DNA of 52,625 bases from Synechococcus sp. GreenBA-s (lineage in GTDB: Bacteria > Cyanobacteriota > Cyanobacteriia > PCC-6307 > Cyanobiaceae), in NCBI RefSeq assembly GCF_024345855.1, contig NZ_JAGQBX010000016.1, positions 1-52,625 on the forward strand, read 5' to 3'. Position numbers and translations under genes: made by a program. This document shows, piece after piece, positions 18,049 to 21,612 of this stretch. Position 1 is the stretch's first letter; every line of letters starts with the position of its first letter. The notes beneath the pieces were generated by a model, which had not been told where the DNA came from, made no database searches, and saw only the letters and a program-made list of their open reading frames with translations.

Positions 18049-19950
18049 CTACCCCAGCACCCCCAGGCGCTGCAGCAGCCCAGCCCCCTGGAAGAACACG
18101 AAGCTCACCAGCCAGGCCAGCAGCAGCGACCAGAGCACGCTGAACACCGTGAAGCCCAGCCGCTTCGACTCACTGCGGATCACCGCCACCGTGGAGAGGC
18201 AGGGGGTATAGAGCAGGGTGAACAGCATGAAGCTCACCGCCTGGGTCCAGCTCACGTCCGTCGCCACGGCACGGCCCAGGGCCGCCGGGTCGGCCTGGCC
18301 GTAGATCACCGCCAGCCCACCGAGCACGATCTCCTTGGCGATGAAGCCGAACAGCAGCGCCACGGTGAGCTTGGGGTTGATGCCGATGGGCCCGAGCAGG
18401 GGTTGCAGCAGTTCCCCCAGCCGCCCAGAGAGCGAGGCGGCCGAGGCGGGTGCGACCCCCAGCGGCAGGGTGTTGAGCAGCCACACCGCCACCACGCCGA
18501 AGATGATGAAGCGGCGGGCCCAGAACCAGAAATGGCGCACCTCCGCCCAGGCGCGGTTCAGCATCTGACGCAGGGTGGGAAAGCGGTAGGGGGGCAGTTC
18601 CAGCACCAGCGGCTCGTCGCTGGCGAAGCGTCCCTTGAAGAGCAGGGCCGTGAGAATCGCCGCCGCGAAGCTCATCAGGTAGAGGCCGAAGATCACCAGG
18701 CCGCCCTGAAGCGGCGGGAAGAAGGCCGCCGCCATGAACAGGAACACGTTCAGCCGGGCTGAGCAGAGCGAGAAGGGAATGATCAGCATCGAGAGCAGCC
18801 GCAGGCCGCTGCTGCGCATCACCCGGGTGCCCAGGATCGCCGGCACGTTGCAGCCGAAACCCATCAGCGACAGCACAAAACTGCGGCCATCGAGGCCGAG
18901 CCGCTCCATGAAGGCATCCATCAGGTAGGCGGCCCGCGAGAGATAGCCGCTGTCCTCCAGCACGCCCATGGCCAGGAAGAACAGGAAGATCACCGGCAGG
19001 AACGCCGTGACGGTGCCGAGGCCCTGGTAGAGGGCATCGAGCAGAAAGCCCTTCAGAAACGGCGGCAGGCCGGAGAGCAGTGGCGTCAGCACGCCCTTGC
19101 CGAAGGCGTCGAGCAGGGAGCCAAGGGCCTCCTGCAGCGGCACGCCGATGGCATAGATGGCCTGGAACATCAGGGCCATCGCCAGGAAGAACAGCGGCAG
19201 CCCCAGCCACGGGTGCAGCAGCAGGGCATCGAGCCGGCGGGTGAGCCGGTCGCGCCACTGGGGCGGCAGGCGCACCGCCGCGGCCAGCAGGAGCGCCATC
19301 CGCTCCGGCAGCTCCGCCTCGCCGGCCTGCAGGATCGGCTCCAGCAGGGGAATCGGCGCGGGTTGGGCCTCGGCATCGGAAGCAGCGGAGGCCCCTGCGA
19401 GGGCTGAGGGGTCTGCTGCGGGGCCGAGCTGGCGCACCATGGCCTGGCGGACCTGGGCCAGGCCGCGTCGGTACTTGGCACTCACGAGCAGCACCGGCAG
19501 CCCGAGTTCAGAACTCAGGCGCTCGGTATCGATGCTCACCCCGAAGCGGCGGGCCTCATCGGCCATGTTCAGCAGCAGCACGGCCGGCAGCCCCAGCTGG
19601 CGCACCTGCAGGGCCAGGCGCAGCTGGCGGTCGATCTGGCTGGCGTTGAGGATCACCACCACCAGGTCGATCGGGGTGGCTTCGAGGAAGCGCCGCACCA
19701 CGGCCTCGTCCTCGGAGTGGCCGCGCAGGTCGTAGATGCCGGGCAGATCCACCAGCTGGGCGGGGCGACCCTCCAGGTCGAGGTCGGCCTGCAGCAGATC
19801 CACGGTGAGGCCCGGCCAGTTGCCGATATGGGCGTGGCTGCCGGTGAGCTGGCTGAAGAAGGTCGACTTGCCCGTGTTGGGCATGCCCAGCACGGCGATG
19901 GTGGCCTGGCCGGCGGGGGCGCTCCAGACGGGGCTCTGGCAGTGGCTCAC
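18049..19950 (-). CDS. feoB: Ferrous iron transport protein B
   Basis: Inner-membrane Fe(II) transporter with an N-terminal GTPase. G1 is GMPNTGKST, G2 lies in GNWPGLTVDLL, G3 in DLPGIYDL (which also includes the family SEDE stretch), and the G4-like motif NMADEARR follows. A multi-helix transporter core of Gate-type repeats comes next (GYLSRAAYLMDAFMERLGLDGRSFVLSLMGFGCNVPAILGTR). At 633 residues it is shorter than the E. coli protein (about 770), mostly through a reduced linker and C-terminus. Its start overlaps the feoA stop by 4 bp, indicating one transcript. Iron limitation probably induces it. Confidence 0.95.
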   Translation of the reverse strand: MSHCQSPVWSAPAGQATIAVLGMPNTGKSTFFSQLTGSHAHIGNWPGLTVDLLQADLDLEGRPAQLVDLPGIYDLRGHSEDEAVVRRFLEATPIDLVVVILNASQIDRQLRLALQVRQLGLPAVLLLNMADEARRFGVSIDTERLSSELGLPVLLVSAKYRRGLAQVRQAMVRQLGPAADPSALAGASAASDAEAQPAPIPLLEPILQAGEAELPERMALLLAAAVRLPPQWRDRLTRRLDALLLHPWLGLPLFFLAMALMFQAIYAIGVPLQEALGSLLDAFGKGVLTPLLSGLPPFLKGFLLDALYQGLGTVTAFLPVIFLFFLAMGVLEDSGYLSRAAYLMDAFMERLGLDGRSFVLSLMGFGCNVPAILGTRVMRSSGLRLLSMLIIPFSLCSARLNVFLFMAAAFFPPLQGGLVIFGLYLMSFAAAILTALLFKGRFASDEPLVLELPPYRFPTLRQMLNRAWAEVRHFWFWARRFIIFGVVAVWLLNTLPLGVAPASAASLSGRLGELLQPLLGPIGINPKLTVALLFGFIAKEIVLGGLAVIYGQADPAALGRAVATDVSWTQAVSFMLFTLLYTPCLSTVAVIRSESKRLGFTVFSVLWSLLLAWLVSFVFFQGAGLLQRLGVLG

Positions 19951-20195
19951 GCGGCCCCATCCAGGGCGATGAGGTCCACCCGGGCCGCGTCACGGCGGCG
20001 CAGCATCAGCTCGGTCATGCCGACGCGCAGGTGCAGGGGCCCGCCCCAGCCGGCCCGGCGCAGCAGCTCCACGCGCTGGCCGGGGCGCAGACCAAGGGCG
20101 GCGAGGCGCTGGCCCAGGCCCGTGTCGGCCGCCAGGGAGCCAATGGTGGCGGACTGGCCGGGGACCAGATCGGCGAGCCGGGGAGGCGTTCGCAT
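19947..20195 (-). CDS. feoA: Ferrous iron transport protein A
   Basis: 82-residue SH3-like cytosolic partner of FeoB (LADLVPGQSATIGSLAADTGLGQRLAALGLRPGQRVELLRRAGWGGPLHLRVGMTELMLRRRDAARV). It is required for, or stimulates, FeoB-mediated Fe(II) uptake. It is translationally coupled to feoB. A perfect inverted repeat lies 11 bp upstream of its ATG, at the position expected for a Fur-type operator. Confidence 0.93.
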   Translation of the reverse strand: MRTPPRLADLVPGQSATIGSLAADTGLGQRLAALGLRPGQRVELLRRAGWGGPLHLRVGMTELMLRRRDAARVDLIALDGAA

Positions 20196-20205
20196 CGACG
20201 CCGCT

Positions 20206-20226
20206 TATTGCAAGTGAGTTGCAATA
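20206..20226 (-). promoter_or_regulatory. Candidate Fur-type operator upstream of feoAB
   Basis: Perfect 21-bp inverted repeat: arms TATTGCAA and TTGCAATA separated by GTGAG (plus-strand reading). It is an AT-rich island in very GC-rich DNA, lies between the stop of the upstream unknown gene and the feoA ATG, and has the size and TTGCAA half-sites seen in some Fur-family boxes. Repression of feoAB by Fur with Fe(II) is inferred. Confidence 0.55.
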
Positions 20227-20228
20227 TC

Positions 20229-20912
20229 CTATGCCGGACCGATCGAGCCTCCGGCTCCGGCCAGGGGCTCCAGCAGGCCACTGGCCCCGTAGCGGCGGCT
20301 GATCTCCAGCACCAGCCCCGGCTCAGGGCTCCAGCGCAGGCTTGTGCACACCGGATCCCCCAGGCAGCGGCCGCTGGCTGTCGCGATCTCCAGGCCCGGC
20401 TCGGGGCTCCAGTGGCCCGGGCCCAGCAGGGCCGCCACCAGGGGCACCGCCGGCGCTGGATCCGCCACGCCCGGCCGCGCCTCCATCACCACCACCAGGC
20501 TCTCGGGGTTCTCGCTGCCATGGCGCAGCACCACCCGCCGGCGACGATCGCCATGCACCAGGCACAGCTCGGCGAAGAACGGCCAGGGCCCGATCCGATC
20601 CGGCCCGAGGCTCCAGTGGCCCGCGGGGCTGATCTGCATCTCCGGCGGCGGCTCGGCGAAGCGCATGCTGCGCACCTGGCCGGTGTGGACGTAGGTGAGG
20701 GAGGCGTCGATCGTGCCGTTCTGCTCCTCCACCGCCAGGCGGGTGGGGAACCGCTCCTGCTCCACGCCATCGGCGCCGCAGCGGATGAAGGTGCCGTGCC
20801 AGGCGCCGGCATTGGGCCCCAGCAGCCACTGGCGGCGCTGCTGGGGGCTGGGCTCGGCGGGGCTGGGCGGGGCAGGGCTGGGCGCCGATCCGTTCGGCTG
20901 GGACACGACCAC
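20229..20912 (-). CDS. Hypothetical protein, possibly lipocalin-like (DUF3598-type), next to feoAB
   Basis: 227-residue soluble protein. A Pro-rich start is followed by LGPNAGAWHGTFIRCGADGVEQERFPTRLAVEEQNGTIDASLTYVHTGQVRSMRF and then repeated GHWSLGPDRIGPWPFF / GHWSPEPGLEI / LRWSPEPGLVLEISRRYG elements. The Trp-rich beta repeats suggest a lipocalin-like barrel; cyanobacterial DUF3598 and CpcS/T-like chromophore-handling proteins share this look, but the match is from memory. No ATG precedes the conserved part; GTGs at 20912 and 20906 are the likely starts. It ends 33 bp before feoA on the same strand. Confidence 0.65.
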   Translation of the reverse strand: MVVSQPNGSAPSPAPPSPAEPSPQQRRQWLLGPNAGAWHGTFIRCGADGVEQERFPTRLAVEEQNGTIDASLTYVHTGQVRSMRFAEPPPEMQISPAGHWSLGPDRIGPWPFFAELCLVHGDRRRRVVLRHGSENPESLVVVMEARPGVADPAPAVPLVAALLGPGHWSPEPGLEIATASGRCLGDPVCTSLRWSPEPGLVLEISRRYGASGLLEPLAGAGGSIGPA

Positions 20913-21039
20913 GGGGCAGGACGGCAGGGAGGCGCCGATGCTGGCAGGGACGGCCAGGGGCCCGCGCCGGCCGGCCCGACCCCAGCCACCCCGCTGCCGC
21001 CCCAGGCCTGCCAGGCTGGTGCCGCTTTGCTTCGCCGCG

Positions 21040-21612
21040 GTGATCACGCGCCGCCTGCGCACCGGCTTCCAGTTGTCGCTCCTGCTGGTGGGTGTGGCCT
21101 GGGCCCAGGAGCTGGTGGACCAGCTGCTGTTCGGCGGGCGCTGGAACCTGCCGATGCTGCCCGCAGCGGCCGGCGGCAGCCTGCTGGGCGTGTTCACCGC
21201 ACCCTTCAGCCACAGCGGCTTCGGCCACCTGCTCAGCAACACGCTGCTGTTTCTGCCGCTCTCCTGGCTGGTGCTGGCCAAGGGCCGGCGCGACTACCTG
21301 GCGGTGTGGATCGGCGTGTATGCCACCGCCATCCCGGTGTGGCTGCTCTGGCCCAACGGCAGCCACGGCCTCTCCGGAGTCGTCTACGGGCTGCTGGGCT
21401 ATCTGATGGTGATCGGCTTTCTGGAGAAGCACCCCCTCAGCCTGCTGCTCTCCGTGTTCTGCCTGGTGACCTGGGGCGGCATCCTGCCGAGCCTGCTGCC
21501 CTTCGCCTCGCCGCCGGGGGTGAGCTGGATCGGCCATGGGGCGGGGTTCGCCGGCGGCGTGCTGGCCGCCTTCGCCATCCACCGCGAGCCGACCGATCGC
21601 CCAGCCCGCTGA
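21040..21612 (+). CDS. Rhomboid family intramembrane serine protease
   Basis: 190-residue six-helix membrane protease. The oxyanion-region motif HLLSN (SGFGHLLSNTLLFLP), catalytic Ser112 in GLSGVVYG and catalytic His166 in WIGHGAGFAGG are all present. The GTG at 21040 gives a basic N-terminus (MITRRLRTGF) directly before the first helix; a GTG 21 bases upstream is possible. There is no extra cytosolic domain. Divergent from the lipocalin-like gene. The substrate is unknown. Confidence 0.9.
   Translation: MITRRLRTGFQLSLLLVGVAWAQELVDQLLFGGRWNLPMLPAAAGGSLLGVFTAPFSHSGFGHLLSNTLLFLPLSWLVLAKGRRDYLAVWIGVYATAIPVWLLWPNGSHGLSGVVYGLLGYLMVIGFLEKHPLSLLLSVFCLVTWGGILPSLLPFASPPGVSWIGHGAGFAGGVLAAFAIHREPTDRPAR

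Follow-up and report, generated by a model that had tools for sequence, protein, structure and literature searches.

A conserved palindrome before feoA as the probable Fur operator of the feoAB operon in Synechococcus sp. GreenBA-s

The 21-bp palindrome located directly before feoA in Synechococcus sp. GreenBA-s is in all likelihood the Fur box (operator) of the feoAB operon, as judged from comparison with orthologous loci, and very probably represents a familiar type of Fur operator, at a gene where such operators are known, with a spelling specific to its lineage. Comparison of sequences established the site itself, its conservation, a second site in the same genome and a gene for a Fur-family protein. 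The window analyzed here, i.e. the whole stretch of 52,625 nucleotides from contig NZ_JAGQBX010000016.1, has a GC content of 71.7%, and on its minus strand a gene with a DUF3598 domain, the palindrome, feoA and feoB follow each other in that order (Table 1), with a 4-bp overlap between feoB and the 3' end of feoA. The nearest named relative, Vulcanococcus limneticus LL (Cyanobacteriota), has a 90% identical FeoB; in the DNA upstream of feoA, 613 of 675 aligned positions (91%) agree, and the 21-mer is identical and lies at an equal distance from feoA.

Table 1. Features at the feoAB locus (positions in the window)
Feature	Position	Strand	Basis or remark
feoB, 633 aa, Fe2+ transporter	18049..19950	-	PF02421 E 4.7e-49, PF07670, PF07664
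feoA, 82 aa, Fe2+ transport accessory protein	19947..20195	-	PF04023 E 2.5e-17
Inferred feoA leader, ~24 nt	20196..20219	-	Start ~7 bases past the putative -10
21-bp palindrome TATTGCAA-GTGAG-TTGCAATA, putative Fur box (operator)	20206..20226	.	Exact 8+5+8; orthologue comparison; hold-out model E 0.027
TAGGAT, putative -10	20226..20231	-	Overlaps stop TAG of upstream gene and first box base; TANGAT columns conserved
Gene with DUF3598 N-terminal domain	20229..21281	-	PF12204 E 3.4e-07

The palindrome and its conservation before feoA

The initial annotation had drawn attention to a perfect palindrome before feoA, and this proved to be real, with two exact 8-bp arms around a 5-bp spacer, while its distances to the neighboring genes had to be corrected: measured along the minus strand, 10 bp and not 11 separate it from the feoA ATG (20195), and 2 bp rather than 3 from the stop codon TAG (20229–20231) of the upstream gene. 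The element had also been considered unlikely by chance, which stood for its exact and A/T-rich arms, since perfect 8+8 inverted repeats (spacer 0–10) having at least 6/8 A/T in the arms occurred once in the window (20206–20226) and in none of 40 dinucleotide shuffles. It did not stand for 8-bp repeats as such, of which the window held 56 against a mean of 37.3 (SD 8.5) in the shuffles, nor for the looser motif TTGCAA-N5-TTGCAA with up to two mismatches, whose numbers were unremarkable, with one match in the window against 0.39 expected and eight places genome-wide against seven for a reversed control pattern. Without mismatches this motif occurred at a single place in the assembly (2.85 Mb); none of the two-mismatch sites of the genome was identified as a known locus upon inspection of the open frames. 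What goes beyond chance is the exactness and A/T content of the palindrome and not the loose motif, and conservation is the main evidence.

That conservation was assessed by a FeoA search of 121 genomes of the family, which gave a match in 33, and 30 loci were examined. Inspected for the motif, as the initial annotation had proposed, the feoAB promoters of close relatives carried it in every case: the box TTGMRANTNANTYKCAA was found with 0–1 mismatch upstream of feoA in all 11 close orthologues among these 30 loci (E 2.2e-20 or better, own locus included), each with feoB adjoining feoA. The box started 29–43 bp before feoA in seven of the 11, where the position of the feoA start was estimated by extending the protein match. 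Two loci (L012 and L013) had the box at -113, and their feoA may begin earlier than extrapolated because an in-frame ATG lies 18 bp 3' of the box. In two others (L014 and L015, from genomes G032 and G074) there was a tandem pair of boxes, at about -105 and -67. Counting sites with at most one mismatch in 14 genomes gave 58 against 14 for a reversed control, using a pattern written after the feoA sites had been viewed and with those sites counted among the 58. Eleven loci with such sites elsewhere in the relatives were viewed by their open frames, several of the sites being inside open frames, and none of the 11 was tied to iron on this basis, although the box at locus L067 (G064) is flanked by frames resembling, by eye, those of a ferritin and of an ABC protein that binds zinc.

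The exact symmetry, which the initial annotation had stressed, was not conserved among relatives (e.g. TTGCAACTCATTCTCAA), and therefore symmetry itself is not what matters; the exact palindrome represents one state of a variable site. It is symmetric about a central base at 18 of its 21 positions, as the odd-centred repeat of about 19–21 bp by which a Fur box is recognized.

The remaining 19 FeoA-like loci of the 30 examined were distant (E 9.4e-15 or worse), and a site with a matrix score of at least 6 was found in 0/19. In 17 of these 19 a FeoB relative of 49–53% identity lay nearby, convergent to the FeoA-like gene (second-type loci, L020–L035, L038 and L145–L158). No box was found before feoB of this second feo type at any of 14 starts examined, with a best score of 4.8. 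The box is a property of the feoAB operon type and not of every feo system.

Comparison with more distant feoAB operons

For a wider comparison we used the 80 named loci nearest by FeoB, of which 79 were scored with a 23-bp matrix (L203 being too short), and which were regrouped by us, as the original groups of the script had been cut by rank. All of 26 loci (L165–L189 and L195) scored at least 20; several of them derive from genomes used for training the matrix, so the scores are not all independent, and L166–L171, L175, L176 and L183 are among the loci having spellings absent from the training set. Conservation at orthologous iron genes, as expected for a Fur box, was in this manner seen in 11/11 genomes of the family that have a close feoA orthologue (own included) and in 26/26 wider loci, partly from training genomes. 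L190 scored 1.7, and no feoA was found there. Among other cyanobacterial loci 9/28 scored at least 10 (e.g. TTGAGAATAATAGTCAA and TTGCGAATAATTATCAA) and 19/28 below 10, and among proteobacterial loci these numbers were 1/24 and 23/24, respectively. L176 (CALPNT020000096.1) is a contig of a metagenome-assembled genome titled Bifidobacterium breve, having a picocyanobacterial-type feoAB with the box, and its label is probably wrong.

The 7-1-7 consensus of Fur boxes is TGATAATnATTATCA. Five of the 24 proteobacterial loci matched it at 13–14 of 14 positions, with the center 26–28 bp before feoA (a count made without shuffle control), and three related loci had the exact sequence (14/14). Six other compared sites matched at 9–11 positions and our own site at 8/14, a value that is equalled by 1.0% of random 15-mers. 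When the search was widened to the class (77 genomes, 30 loci), six loci outside the family reached a FeoA E-value below 1e-8; the best sites in five of them (L086, L087, L088, L092 and L094) were reached by 0, 12, 0, 1 and 4 of 1000 shuffles, respectively. In the sixth, L112 (FeoA E 1.35e-09), no site was found before feoA (score -3.5), and a site scoring 22.4 was located elsewhere in the locus. As a whole, the sites at this one position make up a series that runs from the textbook Fur box through the intermediate sites of some other cyanobacteria to the palindrome studied here. The reading as a Fur-type operator, suggested in the initial annotation, was hence strengthened, with the site being present before feoA in 11/11 close orthologues and taking the place of the Fur boxes of more distant feoAB operons. 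The nearest non-cyanobacterial FeoB proteins (L221–L244, 55–59% identical) came from Sulfuricella, Gallionella, Methylophaga and other proteobacterial records, a kinship that hints at transfer of feoAB.

Fur is reported to bind and repress feoAB1 in Magnetospirillum (PMC3251581), and in Caulobacter feoAB is reported to be upregulated both upon iron limitation and upon mutation of fur (PMC3751524). The present site resembles such proteobacterial feoAB Fur boxes in its position before an orthologous feoA and in being an odd-centred inverted repeat, and differs from them in its spelling, TTGCAA-N5-TTGCAA, with the low consensus match given above. The FurA box of Anabaena sp. PCC 7120 is given as AAATAAATTCTCAATAAAT, of 19–23 bp (PMC4005646). 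It is likewise a cyanobacterial Fur operator, and its stretch ATTCTCAAT recurs in relatives of our box, but it is AT-rich and less symmetric than ours, and was built on DNase I footprints. Among the matches listed in the literature searched, titles and the beginnings of abstracts revealed no study of Fur boxes or the Fur regulon in picocyanobacteria. The lineage-specific form of the Fur box seen here in GC-rich picocyanobacteria could serve to predict iron control at sites that a search with the textbook consensus would overlook. As feoB is reported for 43/67 freshwater, 12/17 brackish and 8/48 marine picocyanobacteria, with Fur in all isolates (PMC9361551), how Fur reads feoAB would also bear on the use of a patchily distributed gene set.

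Promoter, leader and the candidate regulator

The putative -10 hexamer in Table 1 follows a TANGAT pattern, with T in 23, A in 24 and G in 24 of 26 loci in the respective columns. A scan for sigma-70 consensus promoters found none, a -35 element was not evident, and no clear Shine-Dalgarno sequence was seen in the inferred leader of feoA. The overlap of TANGAT with the box suggests promoter occlusion, and the leader would then measure about 24 nt. The very short leader proposed in the initial annotation is plausible in view of TANGAT, although the consensus scan found no promoter; the claim of no room for a normal leader went too far, as some 24 nt would make the leader short, not absent.

A Fur protein is encoded in the genome, as a Fur box would presuppose. 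Of three Fur-family proteins, the product of C90:4901-5359 is the most Fur-like (PF01475 E 3e-33; best PDB match 9ire, ferric uptake regulation protein, E 3.6e-21), with no NCBIfam cut-off reached. The protein encoded on C3 had PerR as its best NCBIfam match, and that encoded at C31:23958 had Fur, both below the cut-off; since the latter gene adjoins a frame that is znuB-like by eye, its product is tentatively taken for Zur. A relative of the C90 protein was found in 16/16 genomes searched (best hit E 4.7e-38 or better; 43–89% identical, own excluded).

We infer the binding of Fur, its dependence on iron, the direction of control and the start of transcription as follows. When iron is plentiful, iron-loaded Fur, for which the C90:4901-5359 product is the best candidate, would bind the odd-centred inverted repeat, and RNA polymerase would be blocked, given the position of the box on and immediately 3' of the conserved TANGAT. 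When iron is scarce, Fur would leave the DNA and feoAB would be transcribed with the leader of about 24 nt.

A second locus and the question of what binds the box

The genome was scanned with three models built from sequence only (R1, R2 and R3), of which R2 was made from the feoA sites of other genomes and R3 followed the same scheme minus G032 and G074, two genomes with sites like those of a CRP-type gene; models as short as these give E-values that are only approximate. R2 found two places in the genome at E≤10 (150 of 198 candidates scored). At E≤3, R3 as a hold-out model found only the palindrome and C31:696-716 (E 0.054; 150 of 242 candidates scored). The latter site lies 28 bp before a gene for a CRP-type regulator (PF13545 E 1.7e-08), which adjoins the gene of an ABC-type iron-binding protein (E 9e-98 for its best match in the PDB); we take the regulator to be idiB-like and its neighbor to be FutA/IdiA. 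The scan for the motif at other iron genes that had been suggested thus yielded one further locus, and only one, as a site common to iron genes. Hits of R3 also fell on the CRP-type promoter in five other genomes (G009, G092, G048, G037 and G102), and G115 gave none at E≤3. This promoter has two boxes, over TTGCAA and TANNNT hexamers at a spacing of 17–18 bp. In G047, G051 and G084 a relative of the C90 gene lies approximately 50, 400 and 250 bp, respectively, before the tandem boxes and the CRP-type gene. Elsewhere, R3 found one place in G062, three in G090 (one viewed) and two at contig ends in G005 (one viewed). The G062 box (L163, G062:C1:146184-146201, hold-out E 0.52) precedes a stretch that is FeoA-like at 36% identity, in a locus that gave no match to FeoB, and the strong G090 box (L160, G090:C1:269556-269575, hold-out E 0.07) lies just before a frame for a small secreted-looking protein.

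With a box pair before its own gene in several genomes, autoregulation by the CRP-type (IdiB-like) regulator is possible, and that protein might then be what binds the box, activating its own promoter as well as feoAB when iron is short. We consider this quite improbable and rejected it, because three genomes keep the box before feoA while having no close match to the regulator (best E 2.0e-7 in G032, 6.8e-8 in G074 and 1.4e-6 in G044, as compared to 3.2e-44 or better in the other eight of the 11); G074 is 76% complete, and the best match in G118 (44% identity) may be a paralogue. Sites of CRP/FNR proteins have an even center, unlike the odd-centred box, and the overlap of the box with the putative -10 is a repressor's place.

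Another member of the Fur family, such as Zur or PerR, answering to zinc or peroxide, could be considered as the binder, with two more such proteins encoded and with boxes of this family resembling each other. This we rejected as similarly improbable, for the strong boxes sit at two iron loci, and model R1 at E≤10 (150 of 184 candidates scored) gave no further place in the genome, and hence none at the third Fur-family gene (C31, near 24 kb). Least credible of all was that the palindrome acts as an RNA hairpin in the leader, as an attenuator or stability element: although an 8-bp hairpin was part of the minimum-energy structure of a 77-nt fold of leader and gene start (z -1.82), and the true register paired 78.8% as compared to 26–45% in slid registers, as expected of any palindromic DNA site, the paired cells did not exceed those of column shuffles (79.8%) and the pairing was not conserved by compensating changes among 13 distinct feoA sites. 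As two of the eight pairs of the hairpin (6–16 and 7–15) were broken in 7 and 8 of these 13 sites, it is the DNA half-sites and not the pairing on which selection acts.

Against Fur as the regulator of feoAB counts that the genome has only two strong places, a low number for a global regulator, as do the 8/14 consensus match, the boxless second feo type, the low matrix scores outside the family, the L112 locus and the lack of a sigma-70 promoter in the scan. With Fur as the binder, the same box would also control the CRP-type promoter, and since this lies beside the gene for a periplasmic iron-binding protein, Fur would probably set both ferrous and ferric uptake. A more tentative and rather doubtful extension is that the strong-box Fur regulon of these picocyanobacteria is reduced to two switches, with feoAB being controlled directly and the CRP-type activator, having tandem boxes over its -35 and -10, relaying the iron signal to ferric uptake.

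In G032 and G074 (L014, L015 and L082), feoAB stands behind a tandem-box promoter that resembles the CRP-type promoter of other genomes, and the 8 kb examined of G032 revealed no gene resembling idiA or idiB. These tandem promoters suggest an exchange of promoters between the two uptake systems. A paralogue of the CRP-type regulator (50% identical) is furthermore encoded in our own genome, at G000:C34:22098-22688.
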